From a virus: DNA of 29,672 nucleotides. Both the position numbers and the translations under genes were made by a program. The stretch is taken from the IMG/VR virus record IMGVR_UViG_3300036846_000165, positions 1-29,672 of that record; one strand, given 5' to 3'. Positions 1-29,672 of the stretch are shown here, one piece after another. Below the pieces are notes generated by a model. It ran no database searches, was not told the DNA's origin, and was given only the letters and a program-made list of their open reading frames with translations. Within the stretch, counting starts at the first letter, position 1, and the number at the start of each line of letters is the position of its first letter.

Positions 1-1359
1 GCCCGCCTGTACCGCGATGAGCGCCTTCGCGTTATACGTATCGAGCGAGTCGGAGACGCCGAGCGTCGCATTATCGAGCGCGATATTCGCGTCGCGGGTA
101 CCGAGTATCGCGTCGGTCTCGGTCTGCTGCGCCTTCGCGTTCGCGGCTGACGCCTTCGCCGCCGCCTTATCCGCCGCGGTCTGCTGCTGCTGCGCGCCCG
201 TCGCCGTCGTCGCCGCCGCGGTCAGACCATCGGTAACCGTCTTCGCTTCCTTCTGCGCGTCGGTATATGCCTGACGGTCGTCGTATGCCTTGCGCGATTG
301 CGTATCACCCGCGGCGAGATCGTCTGCGTACGCCTGCGTCGCCGCCGAGAGCCGTTTCTGCGCCTCTGCGGCCGTGTTCGTCGACTTACTCGAGTCTTCG
401 ATCTTGCGTCGGAATTCGTCGAGACCGAGCGACAACACGTCAGACGCGACGCGCCCGAGATTGATATGGATAGCGTGCGACGCGGTGTCTAGACCGTTGA
501 GCGCGATGGTCACACCACCCGCGAAATTGGAGAGCACCGGGATCAGCTGATTACCGATCGCGACCTTGAGATCGGTCGTCTCCGCCTTCATTACTGCGAG
601 CTTGCCTGCGTACGTATCGGCGTACTGCGACGCGGCGCCGCCAAAAGCTGCGTTGAGTTTCACGACCGCTTCCGCGGCCGTGATCGTGTGACCGCTCGCG
701 TCTTTCGTCGCGATCCCGAGCTTGTTTAGACCTTTGAGGCGGCCGCCCTCGACCGCGACGAGCAGCGACGTCGCGCCGTCGAGTGTCATATTCCGAGCGC
801 GGGCGACGTCGGTCGCGACGCCGAGCAGCGTTGTCGCCTTCCCGACGTCGTGCGTCACCGGTACGAGCTTGGCGAGCGCGCCCTCCGTATCGGCGGAGCT
901 GAAACCGAGTTTCTCGAGCTTCGAGTCTGCGCCCTCGATCGTGCCGCCTTCGGTCTTCATGGACTCGCCGACGTTGCCGACCACGACCGCGAGCCGCTCG
1001 TGCGCCTTATTGAAATCCTCCGCCGCCTGTATGGACTCGCGCGCGAATTCGACGGCCGCCGCGCCCGCGACGCCCATACCCGCGGTCATCGCGCCGCCGA
1101 TACCGGCGCCCGACGTCACGCCTGCCTGCTCGAGATTGCCGAGCTCGCCTTGCATCTTCTTCGCGGCGCCCGAGAATGGCAGATTGAACGTACCGAGCAG
1201 CTGCCCGACCTTCCCGAAGGCGCCGCCCATCTTCTGCCCGGCGCCCTCGATCTGCTTCCCCGCGCCGCTGACCGCGCTACTCGCGGTCTTCGTCGACCGC
1301 ACGAGCGACGTCGCGTCGCCGATCCACCGCACAGTGAGCGAGCGAATGTCGGTCGCCAT
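1..1359 (-). CDS. Tape measure protein, copy A (3' end beyond window)
   Basis: The tape measure protein spans the tail tube lumen, sets tail length and is ejected ahead of DNA. About 453 codons are present and the reading frame stays open to the left edge, so the C terminus is missing. The start MATDIRSLTVRWIGDATSLVRS matches copy B almost residue for residue. The ATG shares one base with the TAA of the preceding gp10-like gene. The protein is Ala-rich and helical, with a hydrophobic Gly/Ala segment near residues 85-105 (GGAMTAGMGVAG) and long coiled-coil stretches after it. Copy A and B are close at the N terminus and drift in the helical middle. No tail assembly chaperone pair precedes it. 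The family assignment rests on size, composition, gene order and the matching complete copy B. Confidence 0.9.
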   Translation of the reverse strand, partial: MATDIRSLTVRWIGDATSLVRSTKTASSAVSGAGKQIEGAGQKMGGAFGKVGQLLGTFNLPFSGAAKKMQGELGNLEQAGVTSGAGIGGAMTAGMGVAGAAAVEFARESIQAAEDFNKAHERLAVVVGNVGESMKTEGGTIEGADSKLEKLGFSSADTEGALAKLVPVTHDVGKATTLLGVATDVARARNMTLDGATSLLVAVEGGRLKGLNKLGIATKDASGHTITAAEAVVKLNAAFGGAASQYADTYAGKLAVMKAETTDLKVAIGNQLIPVLSNFAGGVTIALNGLDTASHAIHINLGRVASDVLSLGLDEFRRKIEDSSKSTNTAAEAQKRLSAATQAYADDLAAGDTQSRKAYDDRQAYTDAQKEAKTVTDGLTAAATTATGAQQQQTAADKAAAKASAANAKAQQTETDAILGTRDANIALDNATLGVSDSLDTYNAKALIAVQAG

Positions 1360-1829
1360 TACACGACGCCGCCCGTCGCCCAACGCGCGCCGAGCGCGTC
1401 GAGCGCGTGCAGATACTCGAGCGTCGCAGCTGGCCCTTGCGCCCGCAGCGTCGGGAATAGGAAATAGCCGTCGCGGCCGCGGTGCGGCAGAAACTGCATC
1501 GTCTTCGGACTGCCACGGCCGCCGAATTCGGCGCCGAAGATCAGCACGCCGACCGGTGTCTTACGTTTCCCGACGCGCTTCGCGCCGCCGTACAGCAGCG
1601 ACGGCACCCGATCGGAGGTCGTGCGCAGCGACGTCGCCGCGAGCGCGGCTTGCCTGCCGACACTCGCGCCGAGCTGCTGTGCGCCGTCGACGGCGCGCTG
1701 CGCGACGGCACGCGACGCGGTGCGCAGCTCGGCGTTCGCCTCGCTGCCGTACGTGTTGAACGCGCGCAGCAGCGGCGCCAGACCTTCGACGTCGATCGCC
1801 ATAGCCGAGCTGCGGACCGTCGCCGCCAT
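1359..1829 (-). CDS. HK97 gp10-like head-tail/tail completion protein, copy A
   Basis: A 156-residue protein resembling the HK97 gp10 family, small proteins acting at the head-tail joint or tail terminus. The C-terminal half carries the family-like pattern GAEFGGRG...QFLPHRGRDGYFLFPTLR, followed by an Ala-rich helix. The first ATG is chosen because copy B keeps it (MAATVRSSALAIDVEGL), whereas the internal Met10 of copy A is Leu in copy B. No clear Shine-Dalgarno is seen; it starts 4 bases after the major tail gene's TAA, so translation is probably coupled. Its position is unusual: gp10-like genes normally precede the major tail gene, but here it follows and directly abuts the tape measure, where chaperone genes usually sit. 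Family moderately sure, exact role not. Confidence 0.75.
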   Translation of the reverse strand: MAATVRSSAMAIDVEGLAPLLRAFNTYGSEANAELRTASRAVAQRAVDGAQQLGASVGRQAALAATSLRTTSDRVPSLLYGGAKRVGKRKTPVGVLIFGAEFGGRGSPKTMQFLPHRGRDGYFLFPTLRAQGPAATLEYLHALDALGARWATGGVV

Positions 1830-1833
1830 CGGT

Positions 1834-2313
1834 TTACGCGCTCGCTGCTGCAGGCACGCTCGAGCGGCTCGAGCTGCTCGACGCGTCGCTCTCGTCCGCG
1901 GCGAGCGTCGTCATGTATGTCGGCGCGCCGATCAGCGGTAGCGACACAGTGAACACTGCCGCCTGTGCCTGCGTGCCGCCAACCTGACCGGGAACGCAGA
2001 CGACCGTACCGCTCCACGTCGGATTGGTGACGCCTACGGGCGAGTCTTTACAGAGCAGCGTGAACGGCTGCTGTGTCCGCGCATTCGTGAACAGATACAT
2101 GAGCAGATCGGTCGCGCCGTACGCCTGAAATCCGTCGAGATCGAGTGTCCACTTGATATCGCCGGGCAGCTCAGCCGGTCCGCACAGCGAACCGACGTCG
2201 ATCATCGTGATATTCGGCGTCAGCTCCGCCTTCGAGAGTTCGCACGTCACGTCGGTCGGTGTCGATCCGATCGTGACAGTCGGATTGACGAAAATAAACG
2301 CAGGGTTCGCCAT
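1834..2313 (-). CDS. Major tail (tube) protein, copy A
   Basis: A 159-residue protein that most likely polymerises into the tail tube. It begins MANPAFIFVNPTVTIG, and residues 20-110 alternate strand-like segments, typical of small siphovirus tube proteins (DVTCELSKAEL, PGDIKWTLDLDGFQ, LLMYLFTNARTQQPFTLLC). The C-terminal tail is Ser/Ala-rich and low complexity, probably exposed. GGAGG lies 7 bases before the ATG and is part of TAGGAGG, so the previous gene's stop codon overlaps this ribosome site. Copy B encodes a near-identical protein with the same start and differs mainly in the Ser-rich tail. Assignment follows position after the connector genes, size and beta-rich character; no catalytic motif is expected. 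Confidence 0.8.
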   Translation of the reverse strand: MANPAFIFVNPTVTIGSTPTDVTCELSKAELTPNITMIDVGSLCGPAELPGDIKWTLDLDGFQAYGATDLLMYLFTNARTQQPFTLLCKDSPVGVTNPTWSGTVVCVPGQVGGTQAQAAVFTVSLPLIGAPTYMTTLAADESDASSSSSRSSVPAAASA

Positions 2314-2323
2314 CGGTTGCCTC

Positions 2324-2746
2324 CTAAAAGACGATCAGGGTCTCGCAATCTGCGGCCGGGAGCTCTTGAGATCCGCGCAACACGAGCACCGCGGTCGTAC
2401 GCACCGGGCGTACGTCGGTCACGACGCCGCCGAGCGTGCGATCGGCGAGCAACGCCGACGCGTAGACCGTCTGCAGCTCGTCGAGCGCGAGCTGCGCCGG
2501 TCGTTGCGCCTGCGCGCCGACCACGAGCTTGACGATCACGGCCGCGGTCGGCAGCGCCGCATACGCGGTGTCCTCGAACGTGATCGAGAATGCGCCGACG
2601 AGCGCGCACGGCGGCGCCCACGTATCAGCCAGCCACGGCGCGACGCGCAGCGGCGCACCCTCGAAGGTCTGCGCCTCGAGCGCCTGCGTGAGCGCGACGC
2701 GCACCGCCGCGAGGTCGATATCGACGCAGCGGACGGTCGCGCTCAC
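2324..2746 (-). CDS. Tail terminator / head-closure-like protein, copy A
   Basis: A 140-residue protein conserved at the same length in copy B. It starts with GTG overlapping the connector stop (GTGA). The sequence alternates helix (VRVALTQALEAQTFEGAPLRV) and strands (AALPTAAVIVKLVVGA, TTAVLVLRGSQELPAADCETLIVF). This fits the alpha/beta fold of tail terminator proteins that cap the tail tube, or a head-closure protein. Only this gene and the connector lie between capsid and tail tube, so it may carry work normally split between two proteins. I do not recognise a diagnostic motif; the role is inferred from position and size. Confidence 0.6.
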   Translation of the reverse strand: MSATVRCVDIDLAAVRVALTQALEAQTFEGAPLRVAPWLADTWAPPCALVGAFSITFEDTAYAALPTAAVIVKLVVGAQAQRPAQLALDELQTVYASALLADRTLGGVVTDVRPVRTTAVLVLRGSQELPAADCETLIVF

Positions 2747-3339
2747 GAGAGCACCACGTCACGCCACGGCGACTCGAGCGCGTCAATATCGACGTCGAAA
2801 CGCGGGACACGAGCGACGCCGAGATCACCTAACGGAATGATCCCCTCCGGGCTGGCACGCCGGGCGTACAGCCGGGCGCCGCGCTGCTGCGCGGCGAGCA
2901 TCACGTCGTACGGCACCGCGAGTACCGCGCTGCCATCGGCGACGGCCGCGGTCAGCGGTACGTCGAGCGACAGCGACGCGAGCACGACGAGCGCGCCGGT
3001 CGCGTCGGGTGCCTCGAGCGTCGTCGCATACGTGCCTGCGGCGTCGTATACGTGACCGATCGCGGTCTCGCCCGCGGCCGTCGTCGCGTCGGGCATACCG
3101 TCACCGAACGTCCACGTAAACGGTCCGACGCCGTAGCCGTAGGCGTCGAAGACGACGCCGAGCTGCTCGAAGGGTGACGGCTGCGCCCGGTAGAACGTGC
3201 CGCTATACGCGTCGGCGCGCAGGCGTGCGAATTGTTGCGCCTCCACCGCGTCGCAGATCGACTGCAGCAGCGCGTCGTCGATCGTGTCGGTAATCCGCAG
3301 GTACTGCTTCAAGAGATCGAGCGTCAGATACAGACTCAT
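2743..3339 (-). CDS. Head-tail connector (HK97 gp6-like) with inserted PKD/Ig-like domain, copy A
   Basis: A 198-residue protein whose two ends match the 126-residue connector of copy B. The N terminus (LDLLKQYLRITDTIDDALLQ) is the helical start of gp6-type connectors, which form the ring below the portal. The C terminus (ARLYARRASPEGIIPLGDLGVARVPR) is nearly identical between copies. Residues about 62-126 are not aligned with copy B and carry a PKD-type pattern: WTFGDG at 76-81 and HVYDAAGTY at 96-104, followed by a strand. This is an in-frame Ig-like insertion of roughly 72 residues. No Shine-Dalgarno precedes the ATG; a strong hairpin begins 11 bases upstream of it. Connector role well supported by position and copy B; the PKD call rests on the two motifs. 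Confidence 0.8.
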   Translation of the reverse strand: MSLYLTLDLLKQYLRITDTIDDALLQSICDAVEAQQFARLRADAYSGTFYRAQPSPFEQLGVVFDAYGYGVGPFTWTFGDGMPDATTAAGETAIGHVYDAAGTYATTLEAPDATGALVVLASLSLDVPLTAAVADGSAVLAVPYDVMLAAQQRGARLYARRASPEGIIPLGDLGVARVPRFDVDIDALESPWRDVVLS

Positions 3340-3350
3340 CGCGGGTGGCG

Positions 3351-3380
3351 CCCGGCGCCGTGCGCAATTACGGCGCCGGG
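3351..3380 (-). terminator. Strong hairpin between capsid and connector genes, copy A
   Basis: A perfect 11-bp inverted repeat, CCCGGCGCCGT and its complement around an 8-base loop, starts 14 bases after the capsid stop codon and ends 11 bases before the connector ATG. There is no U-run. It may attenuate transcription after the highly expressed capsid gene, stabilise the capsid mRNA, or limit connector translation. Copy B keeps the hairpin and lengthens the stem by one pair with a change on both sides, which supports a structural role. Confidence 0.65.
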
Positions 3381-3394
3381 TACGCCGTGCCTCC

Positions 3395-4786
3395 CTATCT
3401 GCTCGCGCGCGAGCGGCCGCCGCTCACGCCGCCGTCTGCGGGCGTCTCGTCGTCTGCGGTCGGCTCGTCGAGACCTTCGACCTCCGCAACCGCGGGCATC
3501 GTCGTAATCACGATCGACCGGAACGCGCTCGGCGCGGGTGTCGCCGACGCGAAATAGCCGTAGTACGCGACCTGATACCCGAGAATCGACGGCTCGGTAA
3601 TGCTGACGAGACCGCCGATCTGCTCGTAATACTCCGTCGCGCTCGACAGACCGACGATCGCGGTCTTTACGCCTAGGTTGTTGTCGACGATCAGCCGCAG
3701 ACCAAACGGGTTCGCTGCCCATTCGCCCGGCTGCATCGTGCCGTCTGCGTTGATCGGACCGAGCACCGGAAACAACGGCCGCCCTTGCGTGTCGCTCAAC
3801 ATTCCGAGCGCACGCCAGACGTCGGTACTCACCCACAGCGTGTCAGGTAGCCGGTTCGCGGTGCTCGCCGCGATCGACGACGCCGCCGAATAGATCGCAC
3901 CCAACCATGCCGCGGGTTGCGTCGCATCGGCGAGCGCGATCGTCGCCGTGACGGCCGCCTTGAATGCGGTGCACGCCGCGGCGTCGGTCGCGTACGCATA
4001 CTCAGCTGCGAGATCCTCAATTACGATCTGCAGAATTGCCGGGTCGGTCCAGTCGCGATCTTGGAAGCTGATATCGAGCGTGCCGCCGTAGGTGCCCTTG
4101 GTTACCTGCAGCGGGTTGATCGTCATTTTCTGCGACGGCAGCGCGACTTTCTCCGCTGATTGCGGTCCGACCGTTGTGTGTTGCGCGACGACCGGCCGGG
4201 AGAATGTCTTACCGCTCGCAGGCATCGGCCGCGACGCGATCGACCCTAGGAACGGCCGGACGGTCGGCAGAAAGGTAACGACCGGTCCGAGTATCGGCGT
4301 CGGCAGCAGACCGGGCGTATCGCCGGTCGTCTGATCGGCGCGGTCGAGCGCGCGGGCACGCTCGAACCGCTGCCGGGCGCGCTCGGCGTCACGCTCTGAG
4401 CCGTACCCGAGATCGTGACCGTGCGCGATCACGTAGTCCGCGGCGTATTCGCCCGCGCTGCGCCAGATCTCGGTTACCTCGAGCCGTTCAGGTTCGCGCT
4501 CGACGCGCCGGGTGCCTTGCGCCTGCCCGGAACGTGCGAGCGCGCCGTGCACGCGGTTACGGATCTCGTCGCCGCCCGCGCGCGTCTCGAGCAGCTCGGT
4601 CCATTCGGTTGTACTCGACTGCGCGCGCTCGAGCGTCTGCCGGGCGTCGGTCAGCGTCTGCTGCTCGATCTCGGTCGGCTCGCGGTCTTCGTCGTTGAGT
4701 CGTTCAAGAATTCCGTCGATCGTGGCGAGCGCGCCGTCGCGTTGACGCTCGAGGCGCTCGATAAATCCGGGTACGGGCGTAGGCAT
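3395..4786 (-). CDS. Major capsid protein, HK97 fold, copy A
   Basis: A 463-residue HK97-family capsid precursor. Residues 5-80 form a charged helical coiled coil (IERLERQRDGALATIDGILE), the delta/scaffolding region usually removed by the prohead protease encoded just upstream. The shell domain probably begins around residue 155-165 (TPGLLPTPILGPVV) and includes PVVAQHTTVGPQS, LDISFQDRDWTDPAILQIVIEDLAAEYA and a C-terminal YQVAYYGYFAS...FRSIVITT. A longer open frame extends upstream, but the ATG of MPTPVPGF is chosen: GGAGG lies 9 bases before it and copy B starts at the same place. The acidic C-terminal tail (EGLDEPTADDETPADGG) is low complexity. The processing position is inferred. Confidence 0.93.
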   Translation of the reverse strand: MPTPVPGFIERLERQRDGALATIDGILERLNDEDREPTEIEQQTLTDARQTLERAQSSTTEWTELLETRAGGDEIRNRVHGALARSGQAQGTRRVEREPERLEVTEIWRSAGEYAADYVIAHGHDLGYGSERDAERARQRFERARALDRADQTTGDTPGLLPTPILGPVVTFLPTVRPFLGSIASRPMPASGKTFSRPVVAQHTTVGPQSAEKVALPSQKMTINPLQVTKGTYGGTLDISFQDRDWTDPAILQIVIEDLAAEYAYATDAAACTAFKAAVTATIALADATQPAAWLGAIYSAASSIAASTANRLPDTLWVSTDVWRALGMLSDTQGRPLFPVLGPINADGTMQPGEWAANPFGLRLIVDNNLGVKTAIVGLSSATEYYEQIGGLVSITEPSILGYQVAYYGYFASATPAPSAFRSIVITTMPAVAEVEGLDEPTADDETPADGGVSGGRSRASR

Positions 4787-4823
4787 GGTCGTAGACCTCC
4801 GTAACGCAGGGATTGTCTGCGCC

Positions 4824-4894
4824 GGGTGTCTGCGCCTGATCGCCGGGTGTCGCGAGCGCGCCCGCGGGTGTCGACCGTCAGCCGTCAGGGTGTC
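4824..4894. repeat. Four GGGTGTC direct repeats phased at 21-22 bp, copy A
   Basis: GGGTGTC (GACACCC on the coding strand) occurs at 4824, 4845, 4866 and 4888, giving steps of 21, 21 and 22 bases, close to two helical turns. The repeats lie in the protease-capsid gap and reach into the last codons of the protease gene. The same array with the same spacing is present in copy B. Regular phasing suggests a protein-binding array on one DNA face, perhaps controlling capsid expression; an RNA role is also possible. Confidence 0.6.
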
Positions 4895-5486
4895 GGCTAT
4901 CGGGCGTGAGCGTAAGACTGCGCCGCCATTCGGTCCAGTCATTCCGCCAGCTGCGCGCGCGGTCGGCGCCGGGCGTCGAGCTGCTGCGTACTGCGAGCGG
5001 CTCGACGGGCGGATACGCAGGGTCGGGCACGAGCGCGACGTGGAAGAGCTGCCGTACGGTCTGGCGCACGCGCAGCACGCGGCCGTCGCGGCGTAGCTCG
5101 CGGGTGGCGCCCGGCTCGAAGGAGACGCTCAGACCGGGCAGCTGCCCGTCGCGGACCTTGTAGGCGACGAGCGCGGCGTCGGGATGCTCGGCCGGGTCGT
5201 CGAGCCGCCAGCGCCCCCATAGGCCGCGCTCACGCTCGACGAGCTCGAGCGTCTTCCCTACCCACCCTGCGAGGTCGCGGCCGTGCGGGTACCGCAGCTG
5301 CACGACGCGCGGCGCCCGCACGACGTGCCGGAACGAGCCGCGATCGAATTGCTCGAGGTACGGACCGTCGCCGTCGTCGACCTCCGCCGCGACGCCGTAC
5401 GGCACCGCGTACCCGGTCAGCGTGCGGCCGTCGCCGTCGACCTCGAGCGCCGCTTGCCGCACGTAGTGCTCGAGCATCGGTCTCAC
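4878..5486 (-). CDS. Prohead protease (HK97 / S78 family), copy A
   Basis: A 202-residue serine protease predicted to cleave the capsid delta domain during prohead maturation. Family features are the N-terminal GYAVPYG near residues 25-31, DRGSFRHV at 48-55, the candidate catalytic His in LRYPHGR (His68) and the candidate catalytic Ser in LPGLSVSF (Ser120), followed by VALVPDPAYP. The GTG start is preceded by GGGAGG with 5 bases spacing and lies 1 base after the portal stop; an internal ATG three codons later is less well spaced. The C terminus differs from copy B after TLTP through a local frame change and reads into the repeat array. It lies between portal and capsid as usual. Catalytic residues assigned by pattern only. 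Confidence 0.88.
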   Translation of the reverse strand: MRPMLEHYVRQAALEVDGDGRTLTGYAVPYGVAAEVDDGDGPYLEQFDRGSFRHVVRAPRVVQLRYPHGRDLAGWVGKTLELVERERGLWGRWRLDDPAEHPDAALVAYKVRDGQLPGLSVSFEPGATRELRRDGRVLRVRQTVRQLFHVALVPDPAYPPVEPLAVRSSSTPGADRARSWRNDWTEWRRSLTLTPDSRHPDG

Positions 5487-5487
5487 G

Positions 5488-6822
5488 TCAGCCTCCCACG
5501 ATCGACGCGAACGGCAGCACGCCCGAAACCTGCGCGGCGAGCGGCGCCGGTACGCCCGCCGGCGCAGCCGGCGGTACGACGTCAGACGATGCGGTCGTGC
5601 CTGCCTGCGCCGCGGCTAGCTCGTCCGATGCCTGCGGTAGGTCGATCATCGCGCGCGCCTCGTCAAGATCGATCACGCCCGCGCTGTAGAGCGCGATCGC
5701 CTGCGTCGCGCGGTCGTTGACGTCGGGGCGTAATAGTCCGACCGGATCGAACCGTGCGCTTAGGTTGCGCGGCAGTGTCTGCGCGCTCAGCTGCTGCTCG
5801 ACCGGCAGTATGTACCGCTGCACGGTCGTCTCGATGAATTGCTGATTCGCTTGCGTGAGGTTCCGGTAGATCATGCCGGGTGCGTCGAGACCGAGCATGG
5901 TGGCGGGTACGCCGAGCGCGAGCGCGAGCGCCTGATTGTTCCACTTGCGCGCCTCGACGAGCTGCGCCGCCACCGCGTCATTGGGCAGCACCGTAATTTT
6001 CGTGCCCATCGGCGTTACGACCGGCTCGCGCGACCCTGCGACCGACGCGAGAAATTTCGATTTGAGGTCGTCGGCTTGTGTCTGCGTGAGGTCCGGGTTC
6101 GGGTGCTCGACGTGCACGCTCGGTACCGCGCCGGTCTGGAAATACCGCGCCGCGAACCGTTCCGCCATGACTGCCGCGGCGACGAGATCCGAATTGCCGG
6201 TCAGCAGACCGCGGCCGATCAGCTCACCGGTCCCGCGGTTGATCGCGACGTGGAAGATCTCGCTCGGGTCGTAGTCGTCGCCGCCGATGCGGTAGATAAC
6301 GCGGCCTTGCTCGACGACGATCGCCCACCATCCTGCGCGGATCGGATACATGACGCGCGGCCAACCATCCCACCCGAGATCGCCGAGCACCGCGACGTAG
6401 TTCCCCCAGAGGCCTAGATCGCGTATCACCTCGTCTTCCCAATCGGCGAGCGTGAGACCGGTCGCGCGCGGGTCACCGGTCGGCGCGCGCAGGATGGGCG
6501 GAGTCGGTACGACCGGCTGCGCGGGTACCTGCGTCTCGTCGAGCGCCTGCAGCGGCATCTGCACGACGAACGCGGAGATCAGCGACAGCGACGCCGAGAC
6601 CGAAGGGATCGCGAGCACCTCAGACTCTGAGATCGGATACAGCGGCGCGCTCGAGGTGCCCATGCTCGGCGGTACGCCGCCTGCGCCGCCGTATACGCCG
6701 GCTGCGATCGCCGCCCAGAGCATCTCGAGGCCGCCTGCGCCGCCGATCGGCAGCGTCGGCGCGGCTGCGACCTGCGCGCGGGTATCCGGCAAGGGTGGCG
6801 GTTTCGCACGCCACAGTCGCAC
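5488..6822 (-). CDS. Portal protein (HK97-type), copy A
   Basis: A 444-residue portal subunit; twelve form the ring through which DNA enters and leaves the capsid. Recognisable portal-family stretches include LADWEDEVIRDLGLWGNYVAVLGD, GWPRVMYPIRAGWWA, GDDYDPSEIFHVAINRGTGELIGRG, the long helix before VPSVHVEHPNPDLT, and WNNQALALALGVPATMLGLDAPGMIYRNLTQANQQFIE with the crown-side helix after it. The frame is open six codons further to a TTG, but the GTG before RLWRAKPPPLP is preferred because copy B has an ATG at exactly this residue and because it ends the 12-bp inverted repeat. No Shine-Dalgarno is visible, consistent with leaderless translation. In copy A it directly follows the divergent control region; in copy B two extra genes intervene. 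Confidence 0.92.
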   Translation of the reverse strand: MRLWRAKPPPLPDTRAQVAAAPTLPIGGAGGLEMLWAAIAAGVYGGAGGVPPSMGTSSAPLYPISESEVLAIPSVSASLSLISAFVVQMPLQALDETQVPAQPVVPTPPILRAPTGDPRATGLTLADWEDEVIRDLGLWGNYVAVLGDLGWDGWPRVMYPIRAGWWAIVVEQGRVIYRIGGDDYDPSEIFHVAINRGTGELIGRGLLTGNSDLVAAAVMAERFAARYFQTGAVPSVHVEHPNPDLTQTQADDLKSKFLASVAGSREPVVTPMGTKITVLPNDAVAAQLVEARKWNNQALALALGVPATMLGLDAPGMIYRNLTQANQQFIETTVQRYILPVEQQLSAQTLPRNLSARFDPVGLLRPDVNDRATQAIALYSAGVIDLDEARAMIDLPQASDELAAAQAGTTASSDVVPPAAPAGVPAPLAAQVSGVLPFASIVGG

Positions 6823-6902
6823 GCCCGGAGTTTTCCACAACTAGTCCCCAGACGCCTAGTCACTAGTCGCAGGGTGCCGAGCCGTGCGATACTCCGGGCG
6901 TG
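6820..6902. promoter_or_regulatory. Divergent control region with 12-bp inverted repeat, copy A
   Basis: CACGCCCGGAGT at 6820-6831 and its exact complement at 6891-6902 bound this region, and each arm ends in a GTG start codon: portal on the minus strand, the coiled-coil gene on the plus strand. On the plus strand GATACT at 6888-6893 lies 7 bases before its GTG, with TAGTCG 18 bases upstream, giving a leaderless promoter. Three CTAGTC repeats (6841, 6856, 6863) and TTTTCCACA, one mismatch from a DnaA box, lie between the arms. The stretch from the left arm through the last CTAGTC is identical in copy B. The binding protein is unknown. Confidence 0.6.
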
Positions 6903-7061
6903 AGCACCCCGGTCGACCCGGACGAGAAACAAGACGAGCTGCAGGCACGAGCCGCGGCGCTGCGCGCGCAGGCGGCCGACCTCGAGGCGCAAGCCGCGCA
7001 CGCAGACGCCGACGCGGCGCAGCTCGACGTCGGCGCACCCGATAGCGACGTCGGCGACTGA
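6900..7061 (+). CDS. Small coiled-coil protein on the opposite strand, copy A
   Basis: A 53-residue acidic, Ala-rich protein, MSTPVDPDEKQDELQARAAA..., one of very few plus-strand genes. Leu14, Leu21 and Leu28 are spaced by seven, giving a coiled-coil helix over about residues 10-42, followed by an acidic tail. Coding is supported by comparison with copy B: apart from a three-base Lys-to-Arg change and TGA versus TAG, every difference is a silent third-base change. The GTG start appears leaderless, 7 bases after GATACT. It converges with terL, whose stop codon is one base away. Function unknown; a moron-type or regulatory/packaging partner is possible. Confidence 0.8.
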   Translation: MSTPVDPDEKQDELQARAAALRAQAADLEAQAAHADADAAQLDVGAPDSDVGD

Positions 7062-7062
7062 G

Positions 7063-8502
7063 CTAGTAGGCGGTCCAGCTCGCGACGCGGCCGCGGACGT
7101 CGGTCGCCGCGAACCGTGCAACCGTGATCGCACCTAACGGGCAGATATCCGCAAGCGAACGGCGCGCCCATACCCAGACGTCGCCGATCGTGCGCCGGCG
7201 CGCCGCGGTCACTGCGTCGTCGAGCACGAGCTGCGTGCGGTGCACGAGCCGGGTCGCGGTTACGTCGTCGTACAGCCCGGCGCAGGCGTGGGCGTAGTCG
7301 CGGCCGCCGACGACGACGACCGGTACCTGCACGGCCGCCTCGAGGTCGCGTGCGAGCGCGCCCGCGGGTCCGCCCGGATCGAGCGCGACGCAGCGGGAGC
7401 GGTGCTGCGCGGCGAGTTGCGCGACGCGGGGCACGAGCCAATCGACGCCCGGCCGGTGCTCGACGATCTCGACGTGCACCCGGCCGTCGCCCCGCACCGC
7501 GCACGCTGCGATCGCGCCCCGATGCCGCTCCGGTGTCACGTCGACACCCCAGCTGATCGACGTGCCCTCGTCGATCGTCGACGCGTCGTCGACGCACGCC
7601 GCCCACGCCTCGAGCGGTATCGCCTGCGCCACGATCTCAGACGGTCGCGGCCAGACATTCAGGTACGACCGCTCGAATTCGGCGGTCGAGGTTTTCGTCG
7701 CCCACAGCACCGCGAGCTCGTCCTCGCGGAATCCGTACCCGAGCGAAGGGTGCGACGCCCGCCACACCGCCGGGTCGGCCGGGTCGTAATCGGCTGCCTG
7801 ATCGTCAGCGGACCACTCGAAATAGGCGACGCCTTGCGCGCCTTGCCGCCCTAACGTCATCCACCGATCCAGCCACGTTGACTCGACCGTGCCGCCCGCG
7901 GACACGATCCACAGCTGCCGCCACGGCCGCGTGAGCTGCGCCGGGCGTGCCGCGGCCTCGAGCGCGTCGCCTTGCAGCGTGTCGAACGCCCACGCCTCGT
8001 CGAAGACGACGAGATCGGCATTGTGACCGTGCAGCGCGGTCTCGGTCGGAGGGAAAATCTGCAGGCGCGACGACCCGCGCCGCGCCCAAACGCCCTCTTT
8101 CCCGGCGCCGCGATACAGCCGAAATTGCGAATCGAGCAGGTCGCTCGACGTGATCGCGGGCACCCACTCGTCGCGGAACGTGCGCGCCGCGTCTTCGCGT
8201 CGCTGCGCCGTGTACCAGGCGCGCAGGTCACGCTGCCGTCGAGCGCCCGCCAGCCCGCGCGCCAGCGTGAGCAGTGTCTTCCCCGCACGGCGCGGCACGA
8301 CGAGCACGACGATCGGATACGCGTACCCGACGCCTGACTCGTCGATCTCGCCGCTGACGTCGCCGACGAGACGCTGCCAGGGATACGGGCGGCCGCCGTT
8401 GCGCAGCAGCGCCAGAAACGTCGCGACCTCGAGCCCGACCGTCGCCCGGTCGCTATTCCTGCTCGTCGCGAAGCGAGGCAGACAAACGGGCAAACGCGGC
8501 AT
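7063..8502 (-). CDS. terL: Terminase large subunit, copy A
   Basis: A 479-residue packaging motor. The N-terminal ATPase shows the P-loop VPRRAGKT at about 69-76, Walker B DLVVFDEA at 163-170 and the coupling motif VSAGGT at 200-205. The C-terminal nuclease has the expected acidic residues in WGVDVTPERH (Asp321), VALDPGG (Asp375) and VLDDAV (Asp429). ATP hydrolysis drives DNA into the prohead through the portal and the nuclease cuts concatemers. The frame extends further 5', but the ATG (MPRLPVCLPRF) is conserved in copy B and has GGTGAGG about 10 bases before it; it overlaps the end of terS by 50 bases. Length and both domains are complete. Confidence 0.95.
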   Translation of the reverse strand: MPRLPVCLPRFATSRNSDRATVGLEVATFLALLRNGGRPYPWQRLVGDVSGEIDESGVGYAYPIVVLVVPRRAGKTLLTLARGLAGARRQRDLRAWYTAQRREDAARTFRDEWVPAITSSDLLDSQFRLYRGAGKEGVWARRGSSRLQIFPPTETALHGHNADLVVFDEAWAFDTLQGDALEAAARPAQLTRPWRQLWIVSAGGTVESTWLDRWMTLGRQGAQGVAYFEWSADDQAADYDPADPAVWRASHPSLGYGFREDELAVLWATKTSTAEFERSYLNVWPRPSEIVAQAIPLEAWAACVDDASTIDEGTSISWGVDVTPERHRGAIAACAVRGDGRVHVEIVEHRPGVDWLVPRVAQLAAQHRSRCVALDPGGPAGALARDLEAAVQVPVVVVGGRDYAHACAGLYDDVTATRLVHRTQLVLDDAVTAARRRTIGDVWVWARRSLADICPLGAITVARFAATDVRGRVASWTAY

Positions 8503-8752
8503 CCCACGAATCCTCACCGGTCGGCGCGACCGGTCCGCCACGCAGCTGCTCGAGCACCGCCGCCAGCCGCCCCGCCAGCGTCGCCGTGATGTACCGACTG
8601 CCGCCCGGCTCGGCGTGCTCGTCGTCGATCTCATCCGCCAACGTGCGAGCGAGACCGATCAGCGCCTCGTCGACCCGCTCGAGCCGCCCAGCACGCCGCA
8701 GCGCCCGCACGGTCACGTCCAAAGAGCGTCGCACGCGACGTACGCCTGCCAC
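8453..8752 (-). CDS. terS: Terminase small subunit, copy A
   Basis: A 99-residue helical protein in the position of the small terminase, the subunit that recognises the packaging site and hands DNA to TerL. The sequence VRRSLDVTVRALRRAGRLERVDEALIGLARTLADEIDDE and the helix TATLAGRLAAVLEQLRG resemble the short small-terminase-type proteins of actinophages. The basic N terminus (MAGVRRVRR) could bind DNA. The GTG start is shared with copy B and no Shine-Dalgarno is seen. The gene overlaps the terL start by 50 bases. The invariant block upstream is a natural candidate for its target. No definitive motif, so the call depends on gene order. Confidence 0.72.
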   Translation of the reverse strand: MAGVRRVRRSLDVTVRALRRAGRLERVDEALIGLARTLADEIDDEHAEPGGSRYITATLAGRLAAVLEQLRGGPVAPTGEDSWDAAFARLSASLRDEQE

Positions 8753-8826
8753 GGTCAGAGCGTGACAGATCGAGCCAGAGCGCCGCTAGCGGCCGTCTGG
8801 CGCTTCGAGGGTCCACGCGGCGCCGT

Positions 8827-8933
8827 GGAGAGAAACGTTGGCGGACGACGATCAAGCGCGGCACCCCGCCCCAAAAAACGCGCCGTCGGCTGCAGCCGCC
8901 CGAGCTGCGCGCTGGCACGCCGTCTGCCGCGCC
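8827..8933. other. Nearly invariant 107-bp block upstream of terS, copy A (candidate cos/pac)
   Basis: These 107 bases match copy B (29566-29672) with one difference, at 8837, whereas I counted nine differences in 120 bases inside terS (8461-8580). The block holds CCCCGCCCCAAAAAACG and, just outside it to the left, a GCGCC...GGCGC inverted repeat in both copies. It lies in the 240-base gap between the small basic protein gene and terS, the usual place of the terminase recognition site. A plus-strand frame starting TTG at 8838 with GGAGAGA before it is open for 72 codons, but lacks synonymous variation, so DNA-level constraint is preferred. Confidence 0.5.
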
Positions 8934-19306: not shown

Positions 19307-21252
19307 GCCGCACCGCGCCAGCTCGAGCCGTTGCGACGCTCGTAGGCGCGGATCGCGTCGACGACCGCCTTACCGGTCGCGGCCGGATCAGCGCCCGGCG
19401 CCACGTTGACCGTAATGCTGTAGTTATTGCCGCCACCGCGCCGCTGCTCGGGTGTCAGTACCTCTTCGCCGCCGTGCACGATCGCCGGTACCGGCGCGCC
19501 GACCGGACCGGGCACGACGCCGCCGTGCTGAAAGAGGCGCACGCTGCCGGGCGTGTTGACCGATTGCGTCGACGGGTGAAACACGATCGCGCCCGCAGGT
19601 CCGCTCGCGATGATCTGCGCGTGAAACGTCTCGGTCCGCGGTGCCGCCGCCCGGTCGAGCTGCGCGATCAGCTGATCGAGATACGACCGGAACGGATTAC
19701 CGGGCGCGATCGTGCCGCGCAGCTTCTCGAGCGCGCCCCGCTCGGCGTCGGTCTCGTGCGCGACGCTGTGCGCCTTCCCCCGCAGATCATCCTGCTGATC
19801 CGCCGCCGCCTTCGCCGACGACGCCACGCCGTCGATCGAGCCCTTGACGTCGTTGCTCGCCTTCTCCCAATCGCGGTTAGCTTGCGCGTTCTTGCCGCCC
19901 GCCTGTACCGCGATGAGCGCCTTCGCGTTATACGTATCGAGCGAGTCGGAGACGCCGAGCGTCGCATTATCGAGCGCGATATTCGCGTCGCGGGTACCGA
20001 GTATCGCGTCGGTCTCGGTCTGCAGCGCCTTCGCGTGCGCCTGCGATTCTTTCGTCGCGGCTTTCTCGGCTGCGGTCTGCTGCTGCTGCGCGCCGGTCGC
20101 GGTTGTCGCCGCCGCGGTCAGCCCATCCGTTATCGCCTTCGCCTTCGCCTGCTCGGTATTGAGCGCCTTTCGGTCGTCGTATGCCTTGCGCGACGTCGTG
20201 TCACCCGCGGCGAGATCATCGGCGTATGCCTGCTGCGCCGCCGCGAGCTTCTTGGTGACGTCCGCGGCGGTGTTCTGCGCCTTCGAGTCGGCCTCGATCT
20301 TGCGTCGGAATTCGTCGAGACCGAGCGAGAGCACGTCGGACGCGACCCGCGAGAAATTGACGTGCATATGTTTCGACGCGGTGTCTAGACCGTTGAGCGC
20401 GATCGTGGCACCACCCGCGAAATTGGAGAGGATCGGGATCAGCTGATTCCCGAGCGCGACCTTGAGATCGGTCGTCTCCGCCTTCATCACTGCGAGCTTG
20501 CCTGCGTAGCTATCGGCGTAGGTTGACGCGGCGCCGCCGAATGCCTGATTGAGTTTCACGACCGCTTCCGCGGCCGTGATCGTGTGACCTGACGCGTCTT
20601 TCGTCGCGATCCCGAGCTTGTTCAGACCCTTGAGGCGGCCGCCCTCGACCGCGACGAGCAGACCGGTCGCCTCGTCGAGCGACATATTGCGGGCGCGGGC
20701 GATATCGGTCGCGACGCCGAGCAGCGTCGACGCCTTCCCGACGTCGTGCGTCACCGGTACGAGCTTCGCGAGCGCGCCCTCCGTCTCGGTCGAGCTGAAA
20801 CCGAGCTTCTCGAGCCTGCTATCCGCGCCCTGAATTTTGCCGCCCTCAGTCGTCATACTCTCGCCGACGTTGCCGACCACGACCGCGAGACGCTCGTGCG
20901 CCTTGTTGAAATCCTCCGCCGCCTGGATCGCCTCGCGGCCGAATTCGATCGCGGCTGCGCCCGCGACGCCCATACCCGCGGTCATCGCGCCGCCGATACC
21001 GCTACCGCTCGTGACGCCCGCCTGCTCGAGATTGGACAGCTCGCCTTGCATCTTCTTCGCGCTGCCGCTAAAGGGCAGATTGAACGTACCGAGCACCTGT
21101 CCGAGCTTGCCGAACGTGCCGCCCATCTTCGAGCCCGCGGTCTCGATCCCTTTCCCGGTCTGCTTCACCGCGGATTCTGCGGCCTTCGTCGACCGGACGA
21201 GCGACGTCACGTCGCCGATCCACTTGACGGTGAGCGACCGGACGTCTGCCAT
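19303..21252 (-). CDS. Tape measure protein, copy B
   Basis: A complete 649-residue tape measure protein. A short N-terminal region (ADVRSLTVKWIGDVTSLVRSTKAAESAVKQ) is followed by a hydrophobic Gly/Ala segment near 88-105 and long Ala/Lys/Glu-rich coiled coils at about 300-510. The C terminus from about 593 has HGGEEVLTPEQRR...NYSITVNVAPGADPAATGKAVVDAIRAYERRNGSSW, the common closing motif of siphovirus tape measures. At the usual 1.5 angstrom per residue it would imply a tail near 100 nm. The ATG is one base after the gp10-like stop. The frame is open further upstream, but copy A starts at the same residue. It is short for the class and lacks a peptidase or lysozyme domain. Confidence 0.92.
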   Translation of the reverse strand: MADVRSLTVKWIGDVTSLVRSTKAAESAVKQTGKGIETAGSKMGGTFGKLGQVLGTFNLPFSGSAKKMQGELSNLEQAGVTSGSGIGGAMTAGMGVAGAAAIEFGREAIQAAEDFNKAHERLAVVVGNVGESMTTEGGKIQGADSRLEKLGFSSTETEGALAKLVPVTHDVGKASTLLGVATDIARARNMSLDEATGLLVAVEGGRLKGLNKLGIATKDASGHTITAAEAVVKLNQAFGGAASTYADSYAGKLAVMKAETTDLKVALGNQLIPILSNFAGGATIALNGLDTASKHMHVNFSRVASDVLSLGLDEFRRKIEADSKAQNTAADVTKKLAAAQQAYADDLAAGDTTSRKAYDDRKALNTEQAKAKAITDGLTAAATTATGAQQQQTAAEKAATKESQAHAKALQTETDAILGTRDANIALDNATLGVSDSLDTYNAKALIAVQAGGKNAQANRDWEKASNDVKGSIDGVASSAKAAADQQDDLRGKAHSVAHETDAERGALEKLRGTIAPGNPFRSYLDQLIAQLDRAAAPRTETFHAQIIASGPAGAIVFHPSTQSVNTPGSVRLFQHGGVVPGPVGAPVPAIVHGGEEVLTPEQRRGGGNNYSITVNVAPGADPAATGKAVVDAIRAYERRNGSSWRGAA

Positions 21253-21253
21253 C

Positions 21254-21718
21254 TCAGCCGCCCGCCGCCCAGCGCGCGCCGAGATCGTCGAGCGCGGCGA
21301 GCCATACCGCGGTGGCGGCGTGCCCTTGCGCACGCAGCGTCGGGAACAGGAAATAGCCGTCGCGGCCGCGGTGCGGCAAGAATTGTTGCGTCGTCGGCTG
21401 CCCGCGGCCGCCGAATTCGGCGCCGAAGATCAGCGTGCCGACCGGTGTCTTACGTTTCCCGACGCGTTTCGCGCCGCCGTAGATCAGCGCCGGTACGCGA
21501 TCCGACGTCGTGCGCAGCGACGTCGCCGCCAGCGCCGCCTGCCGGCCGATACTCGCGCCGCGCGTCTGCGCCCCGTCAACTGCGTACTGCGCGACCTTCC
21601 GCGACGCGGTGCGTAGCTCGGCGTTAGCTTCGCGGCCGTAGTTGTTGAAGGCGCGCAGCAGCGGCGCCAGACCTTCGACGTCGATCGCGAGCGCCGAGCT
21701 GCGGACGGTCGCCGCCAT
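21254..21718 (-). CDS. HK97 gp10-like head-tail/tail completion protein, copy B
   Basis: A 154-residue equivalent of the copy A gene, with the same MAATVRSSA...IDVEGLAPLLRAF start and the GAEFGGRGQPTTQQFLPHRGRDGYFLFPTLRAQG block. Changes cluster in the C-terminal helix. It lies 6 bases after the major tail gene and one base before the tape measure ATG, so again no room exists for a tail chaperone gene. Role at the tail end or head-tail joint is inferred from the family resemblance. Confidence 0.75.
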   Translation of the reverse strand: MAATVRSSALAIDVEGLAPLLRAFNNYGREANAELRTASRKVAQYAVDGAQTRGASIGRQAALAATSLRTTSDRVPALIYGGAKRVGKRKTPVGTLIFGAEFGGRGQPTTQQFLPHRGRDGYFLFPTLRAQGHAATAVWLAALDDLGARWAAGG

Positions 21719-21724
21719 TCGGGT

Positions 21725-22195
21725 TTACGCGGTCGCTGCTGCAGGGGCGCTCGAGCGGCTCGAGCTGCTGCTCTCGTCCGCGGCGAGAGTGATCGACGGT
21801 ACCGGGTCGCCGATCAGCGGCAGCGACGCCGTGAACACTGCCGCTTGTGCCTGCGTGCCGCCGACCTGACCGGGCACACACACGACCGTACCCGCCCAGC
21901 TCGGATTCGTCGCTGACACTGCCTCGTCTTTGCAGACGAGCGTGAACGGCTGCTGCGTCCGCCGATTCGTGAACAGATACATCAGCAGGTCGGTCGTCGC
22001 GTACGCCTGGAATCCGTCGAGATCGAGTGTCCATTTGATATCGCCGGGCAGCTCCGCCGGTCCGCACAGGCTGCCGACGTCGATCATCGTGATGTTCGGC
22101 GTCAGCTCCGCCTTGCTCAGCTCGCACGTCACGTCGGTACCGGGCGTGCCGAGCGTGACGGTCGGATTGACGAAAATAAACGCGGGGTTCGCCAT
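21725..22195 (-). CDS. Major tail (tube) protein, copy B
   Basis: A 156-residue tube protein matching copy A through ANPAFIFVNPTVTLG, ELSKAELTPNITMIDVGSLCGPAELPGDIKWTLDLDGFQ and PGQVGGTQAQAAVFTASLPLIG. The two differ mainly in surface loops such as CKDEAVSATNPSWAG and in the Ser/Ala-rich C-terminal tail. The ribosome site GGAAGG lies about 8 bases before the ATG and overlaps the stop of the previous gene (TAGGAAGG). Confidence 0.8.
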   Translation of the reverse strand: MANPAFIFVNPTVTLGTPGTDVTCELSKAELTPNITMIDVGSLCGPAELPGDIKWTLDLDGFQAYATTDLLMYLFTNRRTQQPFTLVCKDEAVSATNPSWAGTVVCVPGQVGGTQAQAAVFTASLPLIGDPVPSITLAADESSSSSRSSAPAAATA

Positions 22196-22207
22196 CGGGT
22201 GTCCTTC

Positions 22208-22630
22208 CTAAAAGACGATCAGGGTCTCGCAATCTGCGGCCGGTAGCTCTTGACTGCCGCGCAGCACGAGCACGGCCGTCGTACGGACCGGGCGGACGTC
22301 GGTCACGACCGCGCCGAGCGTGCGGTCGGCGAGCAGCGCCGACGCGTAGACCGTCTGCAGCTCGTCGAGCGCGAGCTGCGCCGGCCGTTGCGCCTGCGCG
22401 CCGACCACGAGCTTCACGGTCACGAGCGCGGTCGGCAGCCCGGCGTAGGCGGTGTCCTCGAATTGGATCGAGAATGCGCCGACGAGCGCGCACGGCGGCG
22501 CCCACGTATCCGCCAACCAGGGCGAGACGCGTACCGGCGCACCCTCGAACGTTTCCGCCTCGAGCGCGGCCGTCAGCGCGACGCGCACCGCCGCGAGGTC
22601 GACGGTCACGCACCGTACGGTCGCGGTCAC
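22208..22630 (-). CDS. Tail terminator / head-closure-like protein, copy B
   Basis: The 140-residue counterpart of the copy A gene, identical in length and with the same ending (ELPAADCETLIVF). Substitutions are mostly conservative (VDLAAVRVALTAALEAETFEGAPVRVSPW). GTG start overlapping the connector stop. Conservation of length and register between copies shows it is a constrained structural gene; the role is inferred from position between connector and tube. Confidence 0.6.
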   Translation of the reverse strand: MTATVRCVTVDLAAVRVALTAALEAETFEGAPVRVSPWLADTWAPPCALVGAFSIQFEDTAYAGLPTALVTVKLVVGAQAQRPAQLALDELQTVYASALLADRTLGAVVTDVRPVRTTAVLVLRGSQELPAADCETLIVF

Positions 22631-23007
22631 GAGAGCACCACGTCACGCCACGGACTCTCGAGCGCGTCGATATCGACGTCGAAGCGCGGGACGCGGGCGA
22701 CGCCGAGATCACCGAGCGGGATGATCCCCTCCGGGCTGGCGCGCCGGGCGTACAGCCGGGCGCCGCGCAGCAGCGCCGCCTCGAACAGGTCAGCCGGTAC
22801 GTCGCTGACCGGCGTCGGCGCCGCGGGTGGATAGTCGAGCGGGTTCACCTCGAGCGCCAGCTGCTCGAACAGTGACGGGCAGCGGGCGTACTGCTGCTGC
22901 ATGACTGCGTCGACGATCCCCGCCAGTAGCGCGTCGTCGATCGCGTCGGTGATCCGCAGATAGGTCTTCAGGTCGTCGGTCGTGAGATACGCGAGCGTGA
23001 TCGTCAT
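22627..23007 (-). CDS. Head-tail connector (HK97 gp6-like), copy B
   Basis: A 126-residue connector of ordinary family length: LTTDDLKTYLRITDAIDDALLAGIVDAVMQQQYARC at the N terminus, a short middle (LALEVNPLDYPPAAPTPVSDVPADLFEAALLRG) and the conserved RLYARRASPEGIIPLGDLGVARVPRFDVDIDALESPW end. It has no PKD domain, so it serves as the uninterrupted reference for the copy A insertion. As in copy A, the ATG has no Shine-Dalgarno and sits just downstream of the capsid hairpin. Confidence 0.8.
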   Translation of the reverse strand: MTITLAYLTTDDLKTYLRITDAIDDALLAGIVDAVMQQQYARCPSLFEQLALEVNPLDYPPAAPTPVSDVPADLFEAALLRGARLYARRASPEGIIPLGDLGVARVPRFDVDIDALESPWRDVVLS

Positions 23008-23018
23008 ATCGGGTGGCG

Positions 23019-23049
23019 CCCGGCGCCGTCGCGCAATGACGGCGCCGGG
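23019..23049 (-). terminator. Strong hairpin between capsid and connector genes, copy B
   Basis: A perfect 12-bp inverted repeat, CCCGGCGCCGTC and its complement, with loop GCGCAAT. Compared with copy A, one C is gained on the left and one G on the right, adding a base pair rather than breaking the stem, while the loop stays similar. It occupies the same interval between capsid stop and connector start. No U-run. Likely attenuator or mRNA-stability element. Confidence 0.68.
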
Positions 23050-23065
23050 ATTCGCCGTACCTCCC

Positions 23066-24457
23066 CTATCTCGTGGCGCGGGCGCGTCCGCCGGTCACGC
23101 CGCCGCTCGGCTCGTCTTCGGGTGTCGGCTCGTCGAGCCCTTCGACCTCCGCCGCCGCGGGCATCGTCGTAATCACGATCGACCGAAACGCGGACGGCGC
23201 GGGTGTCGCCGCCGCGAAATAGCCGTAGTACGCGACCTGATAGCCGAGAATTGACGGCTCGGTCACGCTCACGAGCCCGCCGATCTGCTCGTAATACTCG
23301 GTCGCGGTCGAGAGTCCGACGATCGCGGTCTTGACGCCCAGATTGTTGTCGACGATCAGGCGCAGCCCGAACGGATTCGCAGCCCACTCGCCCGGCTGCA
23401 TCGTGCCGTCCGCATTGATCGGACCGAGCACCGGGAACAGCGGCCGCCCCTGTGTGTCGGACAGCATCCCGAGCGCCCGCCACACGTCGGTCGAAACCCA
23501 CAGCGTGTCCGGCAGCCGGTTCGCGGTTGACGCCGCGATCGACGCCGCCGCGGAGTAGATCGCACCCAGCCATGCCGCGGGTTGCGTCGCGTCCGCGAGC
23601 GCGATCGTCGTCGTGACCGCCGCCTTGAACGCGGTGCACGCCGCGGCGTCGGTCGCGAACGCGTACTCCGCGGCGAGGTCCTCGAACACGATCTGCAGAA
23701 TTGCCGGGTCGGTCCAGTCACGATCCTGGAACGAAATATCGAGCGTGCCGCCGTAGGTGCCTTTCGTCACCTGCAGTGCATTGATCGTCATTTTCTGCGA
23801 CGCGAGCGCCGTCTTCTCCGTCGATTGCGGCGCGACGGTCGTGTGCTGGCTGACGACCGGCCGCGAGAACGTCTTACCGCTCGCCGGCATCGGCCGCGCC
23901 GCGATCGACCCTAAGAACGGCCGGACCGTCGGAAGAAACGTGACGACCGGACCGAGAATCGGCGTCGGCAGAACGCCCAGGTTGTCGGCCGTGGTCTGAT
24001 CGGCACGCTCGAGCCGAGCCGACGCGGCACGCTCGAATCGTTGCCGGGCGCGGTCGTAGTCGCGATCGGACCCGAAGCCGAGATCGTGACCGTGCGCGAC
24101 GACGAAATCCGCGGCGTATTCGCCCGCCGAGCGCCAGACCTCGCCGACCTCGAGCGGCGCCGGGTCGCGCTCGACGCGCCGTGCGCCTTGCGCCTGACCG
24201 GACCGGGCGAGCGCGCCGTGCACGCGGTTACGGATCTCGTCGCCGCCCGCGCGCGTCTCGAGCAGCTCGGTCCATTCCGTCTGTTGGGTCTGCGACCGCT
24301 CGAGGGTTTGGCGGGCGTCGGTCAGCGTCTGCTGCTCGATCTCGGTCGGTTCGCGGTCGTCGTCGTTCAGTCGTTCGAGAATTCCGTCGATCGTGGCGAG
24401 CGCGCCGTCGCGTTGACGCTCGAGGCGCTCGATAAATCCGGGTACGGGCGTAGGCAT
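23066..24457 (-). CDS. Major capsid protein, HK97 fold, copy B
   Basis: A 463-residue capsid precursor, the same length as copy A. It has the N-terminal coiled-coil delta region (IERLERQRDGALATIDGILERLNDDDREP), a variable linker around 130-160 and a highly conserved shell domain (PTPILGPVVTFLPTVRPFLGSIAARPMPASGKTFSRPVV onward). Differences concentrate in the linker and the acidic tail (GLDEPTPEDEPSGG), which are regions expected to be removed or exposed. GGAGG is 9 bases before the ATG. It follows the GGGTGTC repeat array. Confidence 0.93.
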   Translation of the reverse strand: MPTPVPGFIERLERQRDGALATIDGILERLNDDDREPTEIEQQTLTDARQTLERSQTQQTEWTELLETRAGGDEIRNRVHGALARSGQAQGARRVERDPAPLEVGEVWRSAGEYAADFVVAHGHDLGFGSDRDYDRARQRFERAASARLERADQTTADNLGVLPTPILGPVVTFLPTVRPFLGSIAARPMPASGKTFSRPVVSQHTTVAPQSTEKTALASQKMTINALQVTKGTYGGTLDISFQDRDWTDPAILQIVFEDLAAEYAFATDAAACTAFKAAVTTTIALADATQPAAWLGAIYSAAASIAASTANRLPDTLWVSTDVWRALGMLSDTQGRPLFPVLGPINADGTMQPGEWAANPFGLRLIVDNNLGVKTAIVGLSTATEYYEQIGGLVSVTEPSILGYQVAYYGYFAAATPAPSAFRSIVITTMPAAAEVEGLDEPTPEDEPSGGVTGGRARATR

Positions 24458-24492
24458 CGTCGTAGACCTCCGTAACGCAGGGATACTGCGCC

Positions 24493-24564
24493 GGGTGTCT
24501 GCGCCTGATCGCCGGGTGTCGCGAGCGCGCCCGCGGGTGTCGGATCGTCAGCCGTCAGGGTGTC
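24493..24564. repeat. Four GGGTGTC direct repeats phased at 21-23 bp, copy B
   Basis: GGGTGTC at 24493, 24514, 24535 and 24558, steps 21, 21 and 23. The array occupies the protease-capsid gap like the one in copy A and overlaps the protease stop region. The core heptamers are kept while the flanking bases and the protease C-terminal reading frame differ between copies, which suggests the repeats are constrained as DNA or RNA sites. Confidence 0.6.
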
Positions 24565-25160
24565 GGCTTACCGGGCGGGAGTGTAAGCGCGTCACGCCAC
24601 TCCTGCCACGACGCCCGCCAGCTGCGCGCCCGCTCCGCGCCCGGCGTCGAGCTGCTGCTGCGTACTGCGAGCGGCTCGACCGGCGCGTACGCGGGATCAG
24701 GCACGAGCGCGACGTGATGCAGCACCTTGACGGTCTGGCGTACCCGCACGAGCCGGCCGTCGCGGCGTAGCTCGCGGGTCGCGCCGGGCGTGAAACTCAC
24801 GCTCAGACCGGGCAGCTGCCCGTCGCGGACCTTGTAACCGACGAGCGCCGCCGCGGGGTGCTCGTCCGGGTCGTCGAGCCGCCACCGCCCCCACAGTCCG
24901 CGGTCGCGCTCGACCAGCTCGAGGGTCTTTCCGACCCAGCCGTCAAGGTCGCGGCCGTGCGGGTAACGCAGCTCGACGACGCGCGGCGCCTTGACGACGT
25001 GCCGGAACGCGCCCCGGTCGAACGCCTCGAGGTACGGACCGTCGCCGTCGTCGACCTCCGCGGGTACGCCGTACGGCACCGCGTAGCCGGTCAGGGTGCG
25101 GCCGTCGCCGTCGACCTCGAGCGCCGCTTGACGCACGTAATGCTCGAGCATCTCGGTCAC
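24555..25160 (-). CDS. Prohead protease (HK97 / S78 family), copy B
   Basis: A 201-residue protease, closely similar to copy A: GYAVPYGVPAEVDDGDGPYLEAFDRGAFRHVVKAP, the candidate catalytic His in LRYPHGRDLDGWVGKTLE, the Ser in LPGLSVSFTPG, and VALVPDPAYAPVE. The GTG start (MTEMLEHY) with GGGAGG spaced 5 bases lies one base after the portal stop. The C terminus is GKPTP, reading a different frame from the copy A end, so this tail is not conserved. Confidence 0.88.
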   Translation of the reverse strand: MTEMLEHYVRQAALEVDGDGRTLTGYAVPYGVPAEVDDGDGPYLEAFDRGAFRHVVKAPRVVELRYPHGRDLDGWVGKTLELVERDRGLWGRWRLDDPDEHPAAALVGYKVRDGQLPGLSVSFTPGATRELRRDGRLVRVRQTVKVLHHVALVPDPAYAPVEPLAVRSSSSTPGAERARSWRASWQEWRDALTLPPGKPTP

Positions 25161-25161
25161 G

Positions 25162-26493: not shown

Positions 26494-26494
26494 C

Positions 26495-27588: not shown

Positions 27589-27667
27589 GCCCGGAGTTTT
27601 CCACAACTAGTCCCCAGACGCCTAGTCACTAGTCACCGGGTGCCGTGCGTGCGATACTCCGGGCGTG
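27586..27667. promoter_or_regulatory. Divergent control region with 12-bp inverted repeat, copy B
   Basis: CACGCCCGGAGT at 27586-27597 and its complement at 27656-27667, each ending in GTG. The plus-strand promoter reads TAGTCA, 17 bases, GATACT (27653-27658), 7 bases before the GTG. The stretch from the left arm to the third CTAGTC is identical to copy A. Here the left GTG begins the fibre adaptor gene instead of portal, so the same control region drives different genes in the two copies. Confidence 0.6.
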
Positions 27668-29512: not shown

Positions 29513-29565
29513 GACCCGAGCGTGCCAGACCGCAGCAGCGGCCGCTAGGGCGCCGCTGGCGCCAC

Positions 29566-29672
29566 GGAGAGAAACATTGGCGGACGACGATCAAGCGCGG
29601 CACCCCGCCCCAAAAAACGCGCCGTCGGCTGCAGCCGCCCGAGCTGCGCGCTGGCACGCCGTCTGCCGCGCC
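29566..29672. other. Nearly invariant block upstream of terS, copy B (runs to window edge)
   Basis: Matches 8827-8933 with a single difference over 107 bases and reaches the right edge, so its full extent is unknown. A GGCGCC hairpin lies just to its left (about 29550-29564), like the GCGCC...GGCGC pair in copy A. Candidate packaging recognition or cos site of copy B. Confidence 0.5.

Follow-up and report, generated by a model that had tools for sequence, protein, structure and literature searches.

The minus-strand open reading frame at 2743-3339 encodes a head-tail connector (adaptor) of 198 amino acids that carries a PKD-type Ig-like domain between its helices 2 and 3. The window, that is, the whole stretch of 29,672 nucleotides of viral DNA that was analysed, holds a second connector gene; we call the two gene sets copy A and copy B. 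The connector of copy B, which appears to come from a sibling strain, has no PKD domain, nor was one seen in the examined relatives; the connector core of copy A was predicted to be intact. Our preferred reading (probability about 0.55) is that this protein is an adaptor whose PKD domain, present in 12 copies and optional, is an accessory surface domain on the neck and perhaps binds weakly to the host surface. The features concerned are the following.

2743..3339, minus strand: head-tail connector (adaptor) A, 198 aa, with the PKD insert (ORF translation, Pfam, phrog_5938)
3205..3321, minus strand: connector helices 1-2, residues 7-45 (AF2 model, copy B match)
2920..3219 (approximate), minus strand: full extent of the segment additional to copy B (residues ~41-140 with the linkers; length of the helix 2-helix 3 loop)
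2959..3162, minus strand: core of the PKD (Ig-like) beta-sandwich, residues 60-127 (model; Pfam match 2992-3120)
2746..2910, minus strand: connector helix 3, hairpin loop, helix 4 and C-terminal tail, residues 144-198 (copy B match, AF2, structural match, phrog_5938)
2324..2746, minus strand: tail terminator-like protein A (profile match, A/B comparison)
3395..4942, minus strand: major capsid protein A (ORF; the likely start is an internal MPTPVPGF common to copy B)
5488..6822, minus strand: portal protein A (profile matches, A/B comparison)
22627..23007, minus strand: connector of copy B, 126 aa, without PKD (search of the window, phrog_5938)

A first-pass annotation had proposed a PKD domain at 2950-3160, based on the motifs WTFGDG and HVYDAAGTY in the extra region of the connector. 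Both motifs were found in the translation, and the position proved accurate when compared with the modelled sandwich and the profile match listed above. Two Pfam models (PF00801/PF18911) scored above their curated cut-offs, PKD_4 with 30.3 bits (E 4.4e-7, cut-off 27) and PKD with 28.7 bits (E 1.4e-6, cut-off 23.5); the best stretch spans positions 37-74 of 85, the C-terminal half of the profile. In the whole record, PKD_4 matched the insert of connector A only. The top matches of the insert in a PDB sequence search were collagenase PKD domains (E 8.5e-5), and a scan of bacterial genomes with a PKD alignment returned 74 loci, many of them actinobacterial. The insert reached 41.0 bits with a PKD HMM, while the best of 2000 shuffled inserts reached 9.5 bits; this HMM was built from PKD domains collected using the connector A sequence, of which the Pfam models are independent. 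The pair W-x-FGDG and HxY...G-Y, which we take to be the PKD signature, forms the most conserved columns of the PKD alignment (A11), and both are present in connector A. An assembly artefact, in which foreign PKD DNA was fused into the connector gene, is highly improbable: although the contig is itself a probable join of two strains, the insert shares its reading frame with the connector sequence flanking it at either end, and its base composition (GC 0.71, GC3 0.87) is near that of the flanks (0.65 and 0.80) and of the window (GC 0.70).

The connector family phrog_5938 matched both proteins (E 5.5e-9 for A, 1.8e-10 for B), in connector A at residues 139-188. Phage_connect_1 remained under its cut-off of 21.2 bits for both (A 17.3, B 20.0), and TIGR01560 was also below its cut-off. 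The gene sits between the capsid and terminator/tail genes, as expected for an HK97 gp6-like adaptor, and the predicted fold is that of the class, a helical core that bears a hairpin and a C-terminal arm. The overall order (TerL, portal, protease, capsid, connector, terminator-like protein, tail) is the usual one and is much like that of the small actinophages RRH1 and GRU3. Among named phages, the nearest connectors come from genomes of about 14-18 kb, most of them of Arthrobacter phages. The phage is a small one of siphovirus type, probably of ~20 kb and temperate.

The structure of full-length connector A was predicted with AF2 from 47 connector rows. Helices were obtained at residues 7-14, 22-45, 144-162 and 183-189, with two short strands within 167-177, and mean pLDDT was 84-97 in blocks over residues 1-40 and 76-91 over 141-180. 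The connector helices were thus predicted intact, while the insert was left unmodelled in this full-length run (pLDDT <50 at 62-95 and 115-133), and the linker stretches flanking the PKD domain were also of low confidence. The sandwich was obtained only when the insert was modelled from 61 rows, of which 60 were PKD domains; it then formed six strands with a mean pLDDT of 80, a partly circular result because PKD rows in the alignment favour a PKD outcome. The N-terminal strand of the sandwich was absent from this model. Searched against the PDB with Foldseek, the model gave collagenase PKD domains as the top five matches (E 1.5e-3 to 1.1e-2), and by VIA-align FN3 domains (Z 8.7) were on par with PKD domains (7.4-7.6). 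With the full connector model, Foldseek gave no match at E <= 10, and VIA-align found one chain, the Douge connector 8zdj_a (Z 8.4, rmsd 4.2, 94 residues), aligning model residues 2-191 with residues 2-100 of that chain. This match is consistent with an undisturbed connector core, although for a helical protein a Z of 8.4 is not strong by itself.

The two connectors align at both ends, as the first-pass annotation had noticed: residues 3-40 (68% identity) and 123-198 (76% identity) of connector A match that of copy B. It had spoken of copies A and B, but two copies within one genome are the less simple reading. Positions 1-8933 align with 19897-29672 at 86-90% nucleotide identity over the shared parts, and the homology reaches both contig ends; this disfavours duplication within one genome and fits a genome of ~20 kb that wraps around into a second strain. 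The simplest view is that copies A and B represent two strains of a single ~20 kb phage joined in one contig; alternatively, the contig holds two tandem related prophages, an integrase being present. Protein identity between the copies was 96.1% for TerL, 92.8% for the portal, 90.0% for the capsid and 91.4% for the terminator-like protein, and 84-86% for the protease, the major tail protein, the next gene and the tape measure. When the partner proteins were compared by sequence, no change answering to the presence of the PKD domain was seen. Because copy B, without the domain, has capsid, portal and terminator-like proteins 90-93% identical to those of copy A, the PKD domain is probably dispensable for assembly, assuming that copy B represents a viable phage. 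Both connector genes look functional: among the last 52 codons, 40 are the same, 9 differ synonymously and 3 non-synonymously.

In connector A, helices 2 and 3 are separated by a loop of 100 residues; in all 46 short-form relatives that were aligned, among them copy B, this loop has 6-33. The count comes from the 47 rows of alignment A6, namely 44 hand-chosen non-redundant sequences from 80 loci, plus P0001, P0002 and L037. No PKD domain was found at any of 134 other loci (L004-L136 and L218, including near-duplicates and mere stretches of records), and a search for the PKD family in 100 records of relatives gave no match. The locus with the nearest other connector, L037, is without PKD. A scan of viral contigs for the PKD domain of connector A yielded no relative, and a scan with an alignment of two PKD domains returned 5 loci, none in a recognisable connector. 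Small PKD proteins were seen in two other viral contigs (L142 1483-2118, 211 aa; L143 2650-3144, 164 aa; both stop-to-stop), and among the nearest PKD domains of named phages is that of a minor tail protein of Curtobacterium phage Eevee (L138 1625-2683; 43.5% over 46 residues, E 0.4). Scans with the capsid and portal proteins yielded one close relative, L040, whose contig does not extend as far as the connector; the only further match, to the portal of L218, was distant. The capsid scan of genome contigs found none. Because a single PKD-bearing connector has been identified, nothing points to selection on the domain itself. The domain could be a recently acquired or decaying passenger with no selected function, since it was found once and is missing from the sibling strain and relatives, but we judge this quite unlikely, as both PKD motifs are retained in the open frame and its scores exceed the Pfam cut-offs.

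The domain had been described as spliced into the connector. The extra segment is real, but gain in copy A is only one of two possible histories. A PSxFEQL stretch of the insert recurs in the short linker of copy B (18/20 nucleotides), and 21 of 2000 codon shuffles did equally well; the outgroup L037 has neither the PKD domain nor this stretch. Copy B may thus have lost the domain, a weak hint that chance could also explain.

In the model, the extra beta domain lies between helices 2 and 3, placed as in the T5 adaptor p144, whose helix bundle (1-45 and 111-170) is split by an attachment domain at 46-110 (PMC11313276; statements on this and the following systems refer to excerpts of the reports cited). 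By analogy, the insertion site is not random, because the T5 adaptor bears its attachment domain at the same split and the RcGTA and R4C adaptors bear one as well. In another connector lineage, whose members are longer (about 200 residues), the segment between the N- and C-terminal conserved parts is a different one and looks rich in strands; the profiles of short and long connectors aligned in the C-terminal part only, and equivalence of the site rests on motif order. The long-form profile matched the RcGTA adaptor weakly (E 0.087), while the short forms had no sequence match to it.

In our reading, the PKD domain sits on flexible linkers between helices 2 and 3, and the helical core keeps the usual adaptor fold. 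If the copy number of other adaptors applies, 12 PKD domains would ring the head-proximal neck; they would be optional, since sibling strain B appears to manage without them using near-identical partners. Less certainly, they may add weak adhesion to glycans or proteins of the host surface, a role that Ig-like domains have at other places on phage virions; the capsid and tail-tube Ig-like domains of Douge, for example, bind the mycobacterial surface (PMC13033339). The first-pass annotation had proposed that the domain would project outward at the neck and might form whiskers or bind polysaccharide of the host. A possible but less favoured role is that of an attachment domain like those of RcGTA, R4C and T5, which would brace the adaptor ring on the capsid floor or portal and stabilise the neck where the symmetries do not match. 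The position of the domain in the protein is that of T5, the attachment domain of the RcGTA adaptor Rcc01688 binds capsid proteins (PMC7296036), that of R4C is Ig-like and touches the capsid (PMC10276861), and in the long-form relatives, too, additional sequence lies between the conserved N- and C-terminal parts. The R4C authors argue that their neck domain serves local stability and not adsorption (PMC10276861), which speaks against surface adhesion. Against bracing, copy B lacks the domain although its partner proteins are so similar, the 46 aligned short-form relatives have none, and the linkers are stretches of low model confidence. Of the two roles, we favour surface display with weak adhesion over bracing.

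Between terminase and portal, copy B has ~1.09 kb (26493-27588) that copy A lacks; judged by ORF spacing, L040 lacks it too. One product of this stretch is an LtfC-like beta-sandwich protein (26.7 bits, cut-off 27; phrog_1084, E 7.7e-24); another is collagen-like, with a weak Pfam match, and its C-terminal head presumably resembles C1q. It is conceivable, though unlikely, that the strains swap surface modules, A having 12 neck PKD domains and no fibre genes and B, without PKD, a collagen-like protein and an LtfC-like anchor, with the helix 2-helix 3 loop serving as a general slot for appendages. Here an adaptor gains or loses an entire Ig-type module from one close sibling to the other, and comparing two otherwise near-identical particles would make the role of a neck Ig domain, adhesion or bracing, directly testable.

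Ig-like domains had been said to decorate usually capsid, tail tube or fibre proteins. PKD domains are indeed present in the T4 decoration protein Hoc (PMC13370021) and named in a capsid decoration protein of Sf14, but Ig-like domains on adaptors are already known from R4C (PMC10276861); a PKD domain in a connector is unreported in the open-licence papers searched. The PKD domains of clostridial collagenases and actinobacteria share motifs and predicted fold with the insert, but they are modules of cellular proteins, whereas the insert belongs to a predicted virion ring. The Douge adaptor 8zdj_a resembles connector A in its helical core, hairpin plug and C-arm; in contrast, the excerpts describing it mention no inserted domain. 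RcGTA Rcc01688 likewise combines a beta attachment domain with a helical tube domain, but its beta domain binds capsid, and the excerpt does not mention PKD (PMC7296036). In T5 p144, as in connector A, an inserted domain interrupts the helix bundle after residue ~45; the 65-residue attachment domain of T5, however, is portal-anchored and not described as PKD in the part of the report considered (PMC11313276). The R4C adaptor vBDshSR4C_004 is a dodecameric adaptor protein with an Ig-like domain, as connector A would be, but its domain is N-terminal (1-106) and outside the named phage Ig families, whereas that of connector A is an internal PKD domain (PMC10276861).
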